From Oceanospirillum multiglobuliferum (lineage in GTDB: Bacteria; Pseudomonadota; Gammaproteobacteria; Pseudomonadales; Halomonadaceae), in NCBI RefSeq assembly GCF_900167095.1, contig NZ_FUXG01000008.1, forward strand, positions 62,001 through 126,000: a DNA stretch of 64,000 nt. The letters run 5' to 3'. Of the stretch, positions 7,382 to 43,929 are shown in pieces; the first letter of the stretch is position 1, and each line of letters begins with the position of its first letter. Under the pieces are notes generated by a model. That model did not search any database. It had not been told where the DNA came from and worked only from the letters and a program-made list of their open reading frames with translations. Made by a program: the position numbers and the translations under genes.

Positions 7382-7419
7382 GTTTTATCGATCATCAGAA
7401 CATTGGGGTAGGAGGCGTT

Positions 7420-8133
7420 ATGACTCAGACCAGCTTAATGTTGCAGATGAAAGGCTGGGCAAAAACCAGCCCCAATCCTATCGCAAAATTTATTCGAAAT
7501 AATTGGAAGCAGTTAAACCGCATTGAGCTTCCGGTTATACCCGTGCTGCATCCTTTGCTTTTTCAAGTTCATCGCAGTATTAGCCAACTGAGTCATACAT
7601 TGGTTAGTCGACTGTACTGGTTACCGCTATTTAAAAGTCAAATCAAGGGCGGTAAGCGGCTTTACCTCTATTCTGGAATGCCACAAATATTAGCGCCGCT
7701 ACAGATCCAAATAGGTGATGACTGTCGCATATCCGGTGTTAGCACTTTTTCAGGTCGCTGGTTTAGTCAGAAAACCCCTGAGCTGATTGTAGGTAATAAC
7801 GTTGATATTGGTTGGCAAACCACTATCGCAGTGGCTGATCAAGTGATTTTAGAAGACAACGTGCGAATGGCAGGTAAAGCATTTCTGGCAGGCTATCCCG
7901 GACACCCTGTTGACCCCATCGCTAGAGCAGAGGGTAAACCTGATCTAGACAGCCAAACGGGCACTATTCACTTGAAACAAAACGTTTGGTTAGGCACAGG
8001 GGTTACGGTGCTTGCAGGCGTCACTATTGGTGAAAACAGCATTATCGGTAGTGGTAGTGTAGTGACTAAAGATATCCCTGCTAACGTTATTGCCGCAGGC
8101 AATCCTGCCAAAGTGGTGCGTCATTTACTCTAG
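7420..8133 (+). CDS. Hexapeptide-repeat acyltransferase (WcaF/WcaB-like)
   Basis: Left-handed beta-helix acyltransferase of 237 residues, probably O-acetylating the polysaccharide with acetyl-CoA. The last 110 residues contain the hexapeptide repeats (VGNNVDIG, ILEDNVRMA, IHLKQNVWLGTGVTVLAG, IGENSIIGSGSVV) and end with the VIAAGNPAKVVR motif shared by serine and sugar acetyltransferases. The N-terminal third is less typical and may form an additional helical part. It starts at the ATG at 7420 after GGAGG. Neighbours place it in exopolysaccharide decoration. Confidence 0.85.
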   Translation: MTQTSLMLQMKGWAKTSPNPIAKFIRNNWKQLNRIELPVIPVLHPLLFQVHRSISQLSHTLVSRLYWLPLFKSQIKGGKRLYLYSGMPQILAPLQIQIGDDCRISGVSTFSGRWFSQKTPELIVGNNVDIGWQTTIAVADQVILEDNVRMAGKAFLAGYPGHPVDPIARAEGKPDLDSQTGTIHLKQNVWLGTGVTVLAGVTIGENSIIGSGSVVTKDIPANVIAAGNPAKVVRHLL

Positions 8134-40063: not shown

Positions 40064-40097
40064 AATCATGAAGCGCTAACGAAAGCGCTTCATGATT
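40064..40097. terminator. Strong hairpin between miaE and the Nudix gene
   Basis: A perfect 14-bp stem (40064-40077 with 40084-40097), loop AACGAA. It overlaps the last codons of the convergent Nudix gene, whose stop is at 40076-40078. Neither side has a T-run, so it may act as a 3'-end stabiliser or a weak bidirectional terminator. Confidence 0.5.
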
Positions 40098-40480
40098 GCC
40101 GAGGCGATTGTTTGGTCGGCCATTACTCGATTTAACTTATTTAATTCAACCCAGCAGCGTTTGCGCTCTTTCTGCTCTGGCCAACGGCGCAGTGTTTTTG
40201 TAACTTTAATAACAAAAACCCAAACCGTACGCTTTTTATTTTTCATACCCGAGCAAGTTGAAATTTTGAACTTTGAACTTTGACTTAACCTTCCAATCAT
40301 GCCCGCTTCTTCATAAGCCTCAAGCCGTGCAACGCCTGCTTTAGAAAGCTTTTTCTCTGTTTTACCCATCGGAATCATCCAGTGACCATGCTTTCTACTG
40401 GTTACTAAACATACCTCTGGTGCACGATTTTTCCGATGTCGAATCAGCAGAGCGGCTATACGTTCCTTGTGATCAGCCAT
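40076..40480 (-). CDS. Nudix hydrolase, DIPP-like
   Basis: A 134-residue Nudix protein of the group that includes diphosphoinositol-polyphosphate and diadenosine-polyphosphate hydrolases: HWMIPMGKTEKKLSKAGVARLE then AYEEAGMIG. Against the canonical GX5EX7REUXEEXGU box, the first Glu and the Arg are replaced, as in some DIPP-like bacterial proteins, but the E-x2-EE pairs at the metal site remain. The ATG at 40480 is the start, 5 bases after the parA stop. It is the last gene of the RHH-CHAD-ParA operon. Substrate unknown; polyphosphate-like molecules are an inference. Confidence 0.72.
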   Translation of the reverse strand: MADHKERIAALLIRHRKNRAPEVCLVTSRKHGHWMIPMGKTEKKLSKAGVARLEAYEEAGMIGRLSQSSKFKISTCSGMKNKKRTVWVFVIKVTKTLRRWPEQKERKRCWVELNKLNRVMADQTIASAIMKRFR

Positions 40481-40485
40481 AATAA

Positions 40486-41235
40486 TTATAAGCTCTCTAA
40501 CTGCTGTTGAATTTCTTGCCATAAGTTTAGATAGGCTTCCCCACCTGCTGTTTTGGCTGCAAAACAGGCAACAGGAGTGCGATGCTCGCCCATTTTTTCA
40601 ATATCACTTGAAAAGGGCACTTGGGTAATCAGCGTTCGTTTGTATCGACTCTGCATCCGCTCAATTGTCGTTTTATGTAGTTGCTTCTGCTTTTGAACCA
40701 TTGAAAAGAATGGGTAAACTTGACCAACAGGAAGGTCTTTATCACGGAAAAACTCTAGCAACTGCTCATAAGTGCGCTCAGAAAGAGTGGTTGGTATTAC
40801 TGGTACAACAATCATATCGGCAGCTTGAAACACCGCCTCACTGAGATAGCTTAAACTAGGTGGGCAGTCCAAGATTATCAAGTCGTACTCTTTTTTTAGT
40901 CCTTTCAGCACTTGGCGTAAGCGGCGTTGGCGTTTGTTTATATCACTTAGAAAAACATCAAAATGTCGGAACGACTGATGGGCAGGAATGATATCTAAAC
41001 CATCAAAGTCAGAGGCTTTAATTTGCTTTAAAAGACTCTCATAGGTATCAAAAAAACGCTTTCCCCATTGCTTTTTACCGGAGCGTACACGAAAGTAAAA
41101 AGAGGATGCGCCTTGTGAGTCTAAGTCTATTAATAGCGTGCGATAACCTGCTTGAGCTGCGTTATAAGCTAAATTCACAGAGGTTGCGGTTTTACCAACA
41201 CCGCCTTTAATACTGTAGCAAGCGAGTATCTTCAT
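40486..41235 (-). CDS. ParA family ATPase
   Basis: A 249-residue ParA/MinD-type ATPase. The deviant Walker A K10-GGVGKT, the LLIDLDSQGASS Walker A' and the LIILDCPPSL Walker B are complete. No N-terminal HTH is present, so it belongs to the short ParA (type Ib, McdA-like) class that positions cargo on the nucleoid. It lies 3 bases after the CHAD gene and before the Nudix gene. There is no ParB; the small ribbon-helix-helix protein at the head of the operon could be the adaptor. Confidence 0.87.
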   Translation of the reverse strand: MKILACYSIKGGVGKTATSVNLAYNAAQAGYRTLLIDLDSQGASSFYFRVRSGKKQWGKRFFDTYESLLKQIKASDFDGLDIIPAHQSFRHFDVFLSDINKRQRRLRQVLKGLKKEYDLIILDCPPSLSYLSEAVFQAADMIVVPVIPTTLSERTYEQLLEFFRDKDLPVGQVYPFFSMVQKQKQLHKTTIERMQSRYKRTLITQVPFSSDIEKMGEHRTPVACFAAKTAGGEAYLNLWQEIQQQLESL

Positions 41236-41238
41236 ACT

Positions 41239-42804
41239 TCAATCCTTTTGATGTGCAGGCAGGGTCGTAGTTTCAGGTTTTAAGTACAGCTGCGCTAGAG
41301 CTAGACTCATATCATTTTCAATAAAAGCCTTCAGTTGGATCTCTGCATCAAGACGTTGGTCTTGTTGTTTTACGAACAAAACGCCAGACAAGGCATGCAC
41401 TGCAGCAACAATACTGTCTGATGACTGGGCACCACTATGGTTTTCTAGCTCGCCAATGTCTGGGGAGCTGATCCAGTGCTCAAGATACTCTCGCTGTACG
41501 GCAAAATCGTTAAAATCCCCTAGGCTATCTTGTAATTTTTTCAGTGCCTTAAGTAGTGTTTTCAAGCTCTTTCTTGCCTGTTTTTCTTGAAATAGCCCAG
41601 TAAAAAACTCTAGTAGATAGCGAAGCTTTTTCGCCTCTAGACGAATATCATGGATCTCATCATCAACAGACTGCGGTGTAATAAGCTGAGCTTGAGCAAC
41701 GATTTTTTCGTAACTCTTAAGCAAACGCTTGGCGGCTAGCTTTTGAACGGGCTGAAGTGCTTGTTTACTTTCTTTAAAATCAAGGCTAGCAAGTTGCTGC
41801 TCGATTTCTTCAATTTTACTTTGATAGGCAGGGCTTTTTATCCAGCGCGCAAGTGAACGATGAGCCAACTTACGCTTATTAGCAAACTCGCTAAATAGTT
41901 CATCAAGCCCTTGATGAAACTGCTGTGGCAGCAGCTGTTTATATTCATCTTGACGCTGAAGATAAACGTCTAGGTCACGCAGGGTATTAGTTCTACGTGC
42001 CAGATCACCTAAACTGAGTTTAAAATACTGGCTCGCTTCTATACCTACAACCTGTTTAAGCTGAGTAAACAAAGCTCGGCTACGACGTAATGCAACACGG
42101 TATTGATGCAAAAATAGCTTATCCCAGTCAGCGGCAATACCTGTTTCGTTTAACCGTACATTCTGCCAAAGCGTCGTATGAATACTGGTTAGCGCTGTTG
42201 CGGCATTGTCATTCTCACCCATTATAAATACAGGTCTGCGGCTATAGCAGGTTGGGCAGATAGCCAACAGCTCTAAACTGAGCTGAAATATGTGACGCTC
42301 TAGACTGTCTGGCTCAGAGGATAAAATAACACCTAGTGCTTCTCGGTATTCCTTCTCATACCCACGCAAACCACTTAACTCCAGCATCGCGCCTAAGCCT
42401 GTTTGTGTGATATTCAAATCACACACTTTTTTCAGGTCTTCATTACGCAGTGCATATTGATAGTATTCAACCTCCATATCGGCCATTGGAAATAGACGAC
42501 GAATATCAGTATGCGCAGAGACATAGGCTTTTAGCTGAGGATCGACGCAGTTCTCTGCATAACTAGGCACAGGTTCTGCACGATAGACATTAAGGTCAAG
42601 GTGGTTAATAAAGAAGGTTAATCCTTTATGGTTACTGGCTAATAGTCTATTTTTTTTCCAAAGACGCCATTCAAAATCATCATAAAAGGTTAAGGTTTCT
42701 TGCTGAATCTGCATCGGCTCAAGGGTAAAGTGCGCTTGCAGTTTTTCCAGTATCTGTTCGGTTTTCTGACTATCCTGAACCAGCCACCGGGAATGCTTAA
42801 TCAT
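41239..42804 (-). CDS. CYTH-like and CHAD domain protein
   Basis: A 521-residue protein. The N-terminal part (about 1-190) is CYTH/TTM-like, with TFYDDFEWRLWKKNRLL matching the substrate tunnel strand region. A CHAD domain follows (about 215-500) with the basic His/Arg-rich helices FLHQYRVALRRSRALF and DIRLEAKKLRYLLEFF. CHAD domains bind polyphosphate and target its granules. A Cys pair CPTC lies near 205. The N-terminal half appears short of the usual ExExK start, so triphosphatase activity is doubtful. It overlaps the RHH gene by 4 bases. Confidence 0.82.
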   Translation of the reverse strand: MIKHSRWLVQDSQKTEQILEKLQAHFTLEPMQIQQETLTFYDDFEWRLWKKNRLLASNHKGLTFFINHLDLNVYRAEPVPSYAENCVDPQLKAYVSAHTDIRRLFPMADMEVEYYQYALRNEDLKKVCDLNITQTGLGAMLELSGLRGYEKEYREALGVILSSEPDSLERHIFQLSLELLAICPTCYSRRPVFIMGENDNAATALTSIHTTLWQNVRLNETGIAADWDKLFLHQYRVALRRSRALFTQLKQVVGIEASQYFKLSLGDLARRTNTLRDLDVYLQRQDEYKQLLPQQFHQGLDELFSEFANKRKLAHRSLARWIKSPAYQSKIEEIEQQLASLDFKESKQALQPVQKLAAKRLLKSYEKIVAQAQLITPQSVDDEIHDIRLEAKKLRYLLEFFTGLFQEKQARKSLKTLLKALKKLQDSLGDFNDFAVQREYLEHWISSPDIGELENHSGAQSSDSIVAAVHALSGVLFVKQQDQRLDAEIQLKAFIENDMSLALAQLYLKPETTTLPAHQKD

Positions 42805-42992
42805 TTTGACTTACTTCCATTTGTTTTCAGTTTTACCCTTCCAGCAAGATAATCTTCGACCAGTTGCTCAACAATTTTTTGAATGCTACTGTCTTGCTCT
42901 ATCGCTTTGATCTTTAAGGCTTTAAGGGTCTCATTTTTGAGCCTGAGCGATGTGTTTTTTTTGGTTTTTTCGCCAGATTCATCTTTATCCAT
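42801..42992 (-). CDS. Small ribbon-helix-helix DNA-binding protein
   Basis: A 63-residue protein with a CopG/Arc/ParG-type fold: basic disordered N-terminus, TSLRL beta strand (about 14-18), helix ETLKALKIKAIEQ and helix SIQKIVEQLVEDYL, then a basic Lys-rich tail. It heads the CHAD-ParA-Nudix operon and overlaps the CHAD start by 4 bases. RHH proteins next to ParA are usually centromere-binding autoregulators; TGAC repeats lie right upstream. Confidence 0.72.
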   Translation of the reverse strand: MDKDESGEKTKKNTSLRLKNETLKALKIKAIEQDSSIQKIVEQLVEDYLAGRVKLKTNGSKSK

Positions 42993-43013
42993 CAGGCGTT
43001 ACTCATTCCAATC

Positions 43014-43079
43014 ATGACATAATGACGTCATTTATTGTGCAAAAATTGGCATGCATAATCAAATGACAAAATAATGACA
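43014..43079. repeat. Iterated ATGAC motifs upstream of the RHH-CHAD-ParA operon
   Basis: Motif ATGAC(A/G) occurs at 43014-43019, 43022-43027, 43063-43068 and 43074-43079, with an inverted copy GTCAT at 43027-43031 that makes a perfect 12-bp palindrome AATGACGTCATT (43021-43032). The array lies 22-87 bases upstream of the RHH start in an AT-rich gap between nudC and the operon. This is the arrangement of operators and centromere-like sites bound by RHH proteins. Confidence 0.55.
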
Positions 43080-43113: not shown

Positions 43114-43929
43114 CTATTGATCTAGCTGCTGCTGAAAGTAATCCATTAACTGGCCAGATATTGCGTAACTACCAGGACGTGCAGGAAAGTCCTCTAACCG
43201 CCCCCATCGTGCTTCGACAATCTCATGACCATCAACCTTAACTTCACCACCTGCATACTCACAGATAAACCCTAACATTAATGAATGTGGGAAAGGCCAA
43301 CTTTGGCTAGAAATATAATGCAGATTTTTAATTTCAACGCCCACCTCTTCTTTGACCTCTCGATGAAGCGCTTGTTCGGCACTTTCACCGGGCTCAATAA
43401 AGCCAGCAATACAACTGAAATAATTGCTCTTAAAGCTGGCATTTCGCGCTAATAACACTTGGTCACCTTGAGTAATCAACACGATGACACAAGGGTTGAT
43501 ACGTGGATATTGACGATAACCACAGGCACTACAGCACATTGCATTTTCGTGCTGATGAATATGAGTACGAGTACCACATCGGCAGCAATAGTTATGGTCT
43601 TGCTCCCAAGTCAATAGTTGGCTGGCACTGGCAATAAGTTCAAAACAGGATGCGTCGATACTCATCAAGAGCGATCTAAAACTGGCTTGACTGAAAGGCT
43701 TATCTTCAAGCCAGTCTTGCCATTCAGGACTGCGGGTACAATAAACAGGATAGCCTTGATATTCCGCCACAAAACGCCATGTTTGCTCTGGAAGTTCATG
43801 TGCGACTTGATTGGCAGCCAATAGCGGTGACGCTTGATCTACCTCTACGATTAGATTATGACCGATAAAAATCAAGAGTCTGCTTTGGACAGGTAGCTCT
43901 GCTGTTCCACAATGACGAGTCCACAACAT
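43114..43929 (-). CDS. nudC: NAD+ diphosphatase / decapping Nudix hydrolase NudC
   Basis: A 271-residue Nudix enzyme that hydrolyses NAD(H) and removes NAD caps from RNA. A zinc ribbon has C115-x2-C118 and C133-x2-C136. The Nudix box G176-x5-E182-x7-RE-V-x-EE-V-G is intact (GFIEPGESAEQALHREVKEE region). The NudC tag SQPWPFPxS is SQSWPFPHS here, one residue different. It is on the same strand as the RHH operon, separated by the 121-base repeat region. Confidence 0.93.
   Translation of the reverse strand: MLWTRHCGTAELPVQSRLLIFIGHNLIVEVDQASPLLAANQVAHELPEQTWRFVAEYQGYPVYCTRSPEWQDWLEDKPFSQASFRSLLMSIDASCFELIASASQLLTWEQDHNYCCRCGTRTHIHQHENAMCCSACGYRQYPRINPCVIVLITQGDQVLLARNASFKSNYFSCIAGFIEPGESAEQALHREVKEEVGVEIKNLHYISSQSWPFPHSLMLGFICEYAGGEVKVDGHEIVEARWGRLEDFPARPGSYAISGQLMDYFQQQLDQ

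Follow-up and report, generated by a model that had tools for sequence, protein, structure and literature searches.

Four closely packed genes on the minus strand of a 64,000-nucleotide (nt) stretch of Oceanospirillum multiglobuliferum DNA (contig NZ_FUXG01000008.1, positions 62,001 to 126,000; hereafter the window, whose numbering is used throughout) are described here. As read from the open reading frames (ORFs) and the sequence, they encode, in order, a small ribbon-helix-helix (RHH)-like protein, a protein joining a TTM/CYTH fold to a CHAD domain, a ParA-type ATPase and a DIPP-like Nudix hydrolase (Table 1). An earlier note on this DNA had proposed that the four genes form an operon placing polyphosphate (polyP) granules on the nucleoid. 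The tight packing it described was confirmed: the RHH and CHAD genes overlap by 4 nt (ATGA), parA follows the CHAD gene after 3 nt, and 5 nt separate the ParA stop codon from the Nudix ATG once the Nudix start is revised. The range given for the operon, 40076–43079, was accurate for the genes, but everything above 42992 is upstream DNA carrying the palindrome TGACGTCA.

Proteins encoded by the operon

The ATPase matched Pfam AAA_31/ParA at 1.5e-36, and among solved structures its closest relatives were 8ray, described as a 'ParA family protein' (3.8e-34), and Soj. KGGVGKT, the deviant Walker A motif, and the LDC motif were invariant in 35/35 ParA relatives, as were K10, K15, T16, D37, D39 and D123; because these active-site motifs are retained, ATP cycling is expected. 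The isoelectric point of 9.3 is in itself no test of DNA binding. A Pfam scan of eight proteins, from the operon and its neighbors, gave no ParB-like match, in agreement with the earlier description of a ParA lacking ParB.

The CHAD protein matched Pfam CHAD at 9.5e-49 over residues 214–441, and its AlphaFold2 (AF2) model (pLDDT 93.5, pTM 0.90; 53-row alignment A2) superposed on the CHAD domain of Chlorobium tepidum (CtCHAD) in both the free form (6qv7; Z 34.1, root-mean-square deviation [rmsd] 2.0, 313 residues aligned) and the polyP-bound form (6qva; Z 34.0, rmsd 1.8, 306 residues aligned). Mutation of CtCHAD H253, R256, R260, R296 or R418/Y419 weakens polyP binding (PMC6537752). These positions align with H233, R236, R240, R276, R395 and Y396 of the window protein, each at least 90% conserved among 53 CHAD proteins, and polyP binding by the window protein is predicted from this retention of the contact residues of its crystallized relative. 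The Pfam scan of the protein returned no CYTH match; since residues 1–189 of the model matched TTM/CYTH proteins (Z 10–12, rmsd 3.8–5.3, 147–170 residues), the earlier label 'CYTH/CHAD' was nevertheless right by fold. ExExK is the metal/phosphate-binding motif of active CYTH/TTM enzymes. Because it occurred within the first 60 residues in 0/53 CHAD proteins, while ExE[RK]K is retained within the first 45 residues by 14/16 stand-alone CYTH ORFs in the vicinity of these operons, the TTM domain fused to CHAD is probably not an enzyme.

The Nudix gene is listed as an ORF at 40076–40522, overlapping parA; alignment with relatives (A4) places its likely start at the ATG at 40480. The protein matched Pfam NUDIX at 1e-5, and when profile A4 was compared with the Protein Data Bank (PDB), the best 19 of 42 rows were DIPP1/2/3, DDP1 or MS0616 (E 2.6e-19 to 1.2e-16), with the next Nudix protein at 2.3e-7, a wide margin that upholds the earlier DIPP-like assignment. 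E54, E57 and E58 were invariant in 12/12 relatives. The canonical Nudix box is GX5EX7REUXEEXGU; the window protein keeps G39, E54, E57, E58 and G60 and carries L45 and L53 in place of the first Glu and the Arg, and so departs from the canonical form.

Table 1 Operon genes and upstream palindrome, with positions in the window
Feature	Positions	Strand	Evidence
RHH-like protein, 63 aa, short hydrophilic N-terminal tail	42801..42992	-	Pfam matches below cut-off, AF2, Foldseek
TTM/CYTH-fold and CHAD protein, 521 aa; degenerate TTM about residues 1–187 (from the AF2 model), CHAD about 192–511	41239..42804	-	Pfam, AF2, structure match
ParA-type ATPase, 249 aa	40486..41235	-	Pfam AAA_31, invariant motifs
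DIPP-like Nudix hydrolase, 134 aa	40076..40480	-	Profile against PDB; start inferred from relatives
Palindrome TGACGTCA, likely RHH operator	43023..43030		Conserved upstream of RHH in relatives

The CHAD–ParA pair and polyphosphate genes across genomes

Loci of the same ParA family were collected in three sets, which may share species and in which some loci are clipped by contig ends. Set 1 comprised 35 loci from genome contigs, reduced to 34 by dropping a 29% identical outlier (L041); set 2 drew on 232 gammaproteobacterial genomes, 33 of which matched the ParA profile at E <= 1e-50, giving 34 loci including the window; and set 3 drew on a phylum-wide sample of 397 genomes, of which 60 matched the ParA profile, giving 61 places including the window and one prior locus, of which 59 new loci were read. 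CHAD was counted as just upstream when encoded on the same strand, with its end no more than 1000 nt ahead of the ParA ORF start and no more than 200 nt past it. By this definition CHAD lay just upstream of ParA in 64/127 loci overall (30/34, 28/34 and 6/59 in sets 1, 2 and 3), and the 6/59 of the phylum sample rules out near-universal adjacency. When raw ORF starts and a tighter interval were used, 27, 22 and 5 loci were recovered, respectively, and in set 2 the Pfam CHAD coordinates agreed with the upstream calls. Spacing between the two genes was tight, with a median of -4 nt, at most 20 nt in 56/64 loci and at most 174 nt in all 64.

In a FastTree phylogeny of the ParAs (L002–L004 and L041 used solely as outgroup), CHAD-linked loci were scattered over the family, and a clade of 39 (support 0.96) held 34 of them, the window included. 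ParA and CHAD tree distances correlated (54 loci, r 0.80; none of 1000 permutations exceeded 0.14), a result that vertical descent alone could also give. At the level of whole genomes, CHAD was found in 31/33 ParA-positive genomes of the class sample (only a fragment in one, G143) versus 46/199 ParA-negative ones, and in 50/60 versus 160/337 of the phylum sample, where 42/52 genomes whose ParA is not CHAD-linked still hold a CHAD. The window ParA is 76–82% identical to those of five Oceanospirillum loci. The complete RHH, CHAD, ParA and Nudix set occurred in 10/127 loci, which rules out the exact four-gene set as a conserved unit. Four Oceanospirillum loci and one Desulfobulbaceae metagenome-assembled genome (MAG; L028) have it with no CYTH gene nearby, whereas Mariprofundus, two Colwellia and one Paracoccus have it together with an additional CYTH gene; the contig of the fifth Oceanospirillum locus (L011) stops 443 nt past ParA. 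Of the four families, whose joint conservation the earlier note had named as a check, CHAD–ParA form the conserved core.

Genes of polyP metabolism were sought within 8 kb of each locus with profiles seeded from set 1, which may miss divergent versions elsewhere; Pfam bore out the assignment for a single member of each of four groups, PPK1, PPX, histidine phosphatase and CYTH (the last at 2.7e-7). PPK1 accompanied 15/64 CHAD-linked loci versus 1/63 others, where chance, at one gene per 3.5 Mb, predicts about 0.25 in the CHAD-linked DNA. A SixA-like histidine phosphatase was similarly distributed (15/64 versus 1/63), as were stand-alone CYTH proteins (15/64 versus 0/63) and DIPP-like Nudix hydrolases (13/64 versus 0/63; that of L122 is 4.6 kb off). 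Across the class sample, PPK1 was present in 31/33 ParA-positive versus 112/199 other genomes, and both PPK1-less ParA-positive genomes, of one genus, have PPK2 and PPX. The genome of the window (3.5 Mb, 46 contigs) encodes PPK1, PPK2 and PPX away from the operon. One PPK2-like gene of this genome (G000:C26:22740-23418) matches in two overlapping pieces, one of them with an internal stop, and is possibly broken; the same contig also holds a PPK2 match free of interruption.

ParA relatives at E <= 1e-40 were found in 9/72,556 plasmid records, six of them from Paracoccus; three of the nine records were opened. Plasmid pCP157_03 of P. marcusii carries a substrate-binding protein gene, pstCAB, phoU, phoB and small ORFs followed by RHH, CHAD, ParA, CYTH, Nudix and CYTH, and p296221 of P. 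aestuarii carries RHH, CHAD, ParA, CYTH and Nudix; a Halomonas plasmid record is unannotated at the ParA relative. With a PhoX phosphatase farther out and a histidine phosphatase, the P. marcusii region (L172, L174) is a plasmid-borne phosphate island. A link of the operon to polyP is well supported.

Several arrangements without CHAD were also recorded. In L100 (4771–7789) parA directly follows ppk1 with no CHAD between, and in two Desulfocapsa MAGs (L038, L039) a CHAD-less parA lies near an opposite-strand PPX/GppA gene. Solo parA genes of a 28-member clade (e.g., L118, L130–L134) often adjoin opposite-strand members of the truA, cysM-like and rnfH families; truA (PseudoU_synth_1) was seen at 15, cysM-like (PALP) at 12 and rnfH (Ub-RnfH) at 8 of the 63 non-CHAD loci, with one member of each checked by Pfam.

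The RHH-like protein, flanking DNA and other small proteins

The first gene product matched Pfam CopG_antitoxin (5.6e-4) and RHH_1 (9.1e-3), both under the curated cut-off, and its profile found nothing significant among PDB sequences. Its AF2 model (pLDDT 80.6, pTM 0.54; 16-member alignment A3) shows two helices behind a low-confidence tail, and the first Foldseek rows for this model were ParG (probability 0.94, E 0.27), YiiF, CopG, CdbA, MatP and Arc. Since all of these rows have E >= 0.27, the RHH assignment made in the earlier note is likely rather than proven.

The palindrome TGACGTCA and the start codon of RHH are separated by 30 nt. It is the only copy in the window, where shuffled sequences are expected to hold 0.54; because 43/100 shuffles held at least one copy, the window copy alone proves nothing and the case for an operator rests on relatives. 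In an initial set of loci, for which start codons were picked by hand and which did not include the divergent L027, an exact TGACGTCA starts 24–75 nt upstream of RHH in 15/15. In the corresponding stretch it was found in 15/16 RHH loci (missing in L027) versus 3/111 loci lacking RHH; of these three, L022 keeps an RHH-like remnant (E 5e-3), and L040 and L108 have the palindrome directly before CHAD. Both Paracoccus plasmid copies that were read carry it at -27. With at most one mismatch, an extended site occurred once in the own genome of the window, as did its backward control, which rules out a wider RHH regulon. Over the 397-genome phylum sample the RHH profile found the own genome and one weak other.

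RHH was encoded in 16/64 CHAD-linked loci versus 0/63 others, and since it is present in the window but in only 16/127 loci altogether, it is not a feature of the ParA family; its absence from 48/64 CHAD-linked loci rules it out as a universal ParA adaptor. The earlier suggestion that RHH links ParA to DNA has thereby lost ground, given also that a single palindrome precedes its own gene. Because TGACGTCA pairs so consistently with the RHH gene, the protein is more likely an autoregulator of the operon than a ParA adaptor.

Downstream, the operon faces a convergent MiaE gene. Upstream, a NudC-type gene (43114–43929) was ruled out as an operon member: a phmmer search of the set 1 loci with it gave one match, a Nudix ORF in L036 remote from the operon, and between it and RHH lie 121 nt that contain the palindrome. 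A promoter scan was uninformative; it called three sites resembling promoters, each on the plus strand, versus 5.9 expected.

Proteins combining a helix-hairpin-helix (HhH) with a Lys-rich tail were found in 9/64 CHAD-linked loci versus 1/63 others, in Desulfuromusa, Malonomonas, a deltaproteobacterium, Colwellia and others, and one has Pfam HHH_5 at 2e-9. Those encoded toward the end of CHAD–ParA operons (L013 at 7407–7796, L014, L017, L018, L019, L023, L026 and L076) have a long, histone-H1-like tail and are candidate analogs of AlgP. In the genome of the window an AlgP/H1-like HhH protein was ruled out; the only profile match was in a 500-aa frame read as NusA. A second family of small proteins, RHH-like by eye and with a Lys-rich N terminus, also lies near CHAD–ParA (L013, L014, L017, L018, L019, L023 and L034); the one member scanned had no Pfam match, and the L034 member has a long Pro/Ala/Glu-rich C-terminal extension.

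Possible functions and known systems

The repeated association of ParA with a CHAD protein of the polyP-binding type, together with the ties to polyP and phosphate genes, is consistent with the earlier proposal of granule positioning, and we lean toward the view that ParA, acting through CHAD, positions granules of polyP over the nucleoid. The positioning and the ParA–CHAD contact are what we infer. CHAD would use its basic pore and its surface to coat polyP, as shown for a relative, and ParA would bind ATP and the nucleoid, as expected of its family. Granule-bound CHAD would then act as the cargo adaptor, recruiting and releasing ParA either directly or through the degenerate TTM domain, with the outcome that granules would take up spaced positions on the nucleoid and be shared out when the cell divides. 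The DIPP-like Nudix hydrolase and, elsewhere, stand-alone CYTH, PPX and PPK1 may trim, break down or make polyP. RHH would control the operon, by repression, through binding to TGACGTCA in front of the RHH gene, as suggested by the pairing of gene and site.

Several observations weigh against granule positioning through CHAD. The ParA family includes 63/127 loci without adjacent CHAD, and a clade of 28 (support 1.00) consists entirely of solo parA genes; ParA can therefore do something without an operonic CHAD, and 27/28 genomes of the solo clade encode a CHAD at another place. PPK1 is missing from the neighborhood of 49/64 CHAD-linked loci and from the window, and the contrast for PPX within 8 kb is weak (9/64 versus 2/63, p 0.054). 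These statistics treat related genomes as independent. Finally, deletion of Ralstonia CHAD genes or of ygiF, taken here without regard to ParA linkage, gave no apparent phenotype (PMC6537752). In favor of positioning, the same paper cites Tumlirsch and Jendrossek (2017) for the finding that overexpressed CHAD proteins can shift polyP granules to the poles.

Much of the same evidence would suit a ParA that serves, through CHAD, as a nucleotide-dependent switch on polyP metabolism (nucleation, access of PPK/PPX or the stress response) and positions nothing: the linkage to PPK1, histidine phosphatase, CYTH, Nudix and pst/pho genes fits metabolism equally well, and the L100 arrangement puts ppk1 directly upstream of parA. 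The commonest ParA partner is, however, a polyP-binding protein with an ExExK-less TTM domain and not an evident enzyme, and characterized members of the ATPase family position cargo (PMC10241942); we consider a metabolic switch unlikely. Less probable again is a granule–nucleoid tether, in which CHAD–ParA only anchors polyP to DNA, comparable to the proposal for AlgP, with no ATP-driven movement. The HhH proteins with Lys-rich tails in some related operons are reminiscent of AlgP (PMC9239181), whereas the invariance of the ParA active site in 35/35 relatives leads one to expect ATP cycling. The ParG match at the head of the Foldseek rows, the single upstream palindrome and the copies on Paracoccus plasmids would suit a DNA partition module of the ParF–ParG type (ParA, RHH and a site) with CHAD as a passenger. 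We regard this as very improbable, as RHH accompanies only a minority of CHAD-linked ParAs and CHAD is the commoner partner, the extended site is single in the own genome rather than arrayed, and the window copy adjoins housekeeping genes such as miaE.

Granule positioning by ParA through CHAD also allows a broader and more tentative formulation, for which we would put the chances at slightly under even: a horizontally spread, self-regulated ParA–CHAD cassette that actively moves and segregates polyP granules and to which lineages have added modules, namely the RHH autoregulator, CYTH and DIPP-like polyP hydrolases and histone-tail DNA binders. In addition to its regulatory role, the RHH operator could serve as a centromere-like site, which would tie granule inheritance to the chromosome or plasmid. 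Such a cassette, if real, would mark the first case of a system for ATP-driven transport of a polyP body.

The spacing and inheritance of polyP granules pose an open question, on which the available part of a 2025 review (PMC13052382) lists AlgP as the only polyP-positioning entry, with its ATP dependence given as unknown, and describes the proteins behind granule positioning in Caulobacter as not identified. In this operon both the ATPase and the candidate adaptor can be named, and cultured genera, Oceanospirillum and Paracoccus, carry it; the question therefore becomes one for gene deletion and imaging. The matches listed in our literature search, which left most subscription papers and bioRxiv preprints outside reach, included no proposal of a ParA–CHAD system or of ParA-driven polyP positioning, and the main text of a ParA/MinD survey (PMC10241942) contains neither 'polyphosphate' nor 'CHAD'. 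The earlier statement that no description of this exact set was known agrees with those matches, but adjacency of parA, ppk and CHAD is already in print for a folD-ppk-parA-CHAD cluster of Acidithiobacillus (PMC10892726, PMC6416229). In the sections of these two papers that were available, the cluster is interpreted through cAMP signaling and copper resistance, ParA is called a plasmid/chromosome partition protein, and no positioning role is proposed. Compared by description, this cluster shares with ours a parA beside a CYTH–CHAD gene, with ppk1 in addition; its CYTH active-site residues are reportedly conserved, unlike those of the window TTM domain, and the same sections mention neither RHH nor Nudix.

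Among single components, the DIPP/DDP1 phosphohydrolases are the closest solved family to the Nudix protein by profile; the window protein has L45 and L53 in place of two residues of the canonical Nudix box. The CHAD phosins (CtCHAD, the Ralstonia CHAD proteins and E. coli YgiF) share the CHAD fold, and the mutagenized polyP-contact residues of CtCHAD are kept; the window protein differs in its fusion to an ExExK-less TTM domain and in its close coupling to ParA. AlgP, responsible in Pseudomonas aeruginosa for the spacing of polyP granules (PMC9239181), shares the proposed outcome of even granule spacing on the nucleoid, and some related operons encode HhH proteins with Lys-rich tails, but AlgP is not a ParA system. 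The nearest parallels to the proposed mechanism are McdA/McdB of carboxysomes and PpfA/ParC of chemoreceptors, in which a ParA-type ATPase is likewise encoded with a protein of its cargo (here a proposed one) and nucleoid-based spacing is likewise expected. ParA/MinD positioning systems are recognized by a cargo-specific partner, and CHAD is encoded with ParA in the window and in 64/127 loci. In the present case a polyP granule would take the place of the cargo, with CHAD as its adaptor. If this holds, ParA-type ATPases would gain a mineral-like storage polymer as cargo; the novelty would be a new cargo, the polyP granule, for a known kind of machine.

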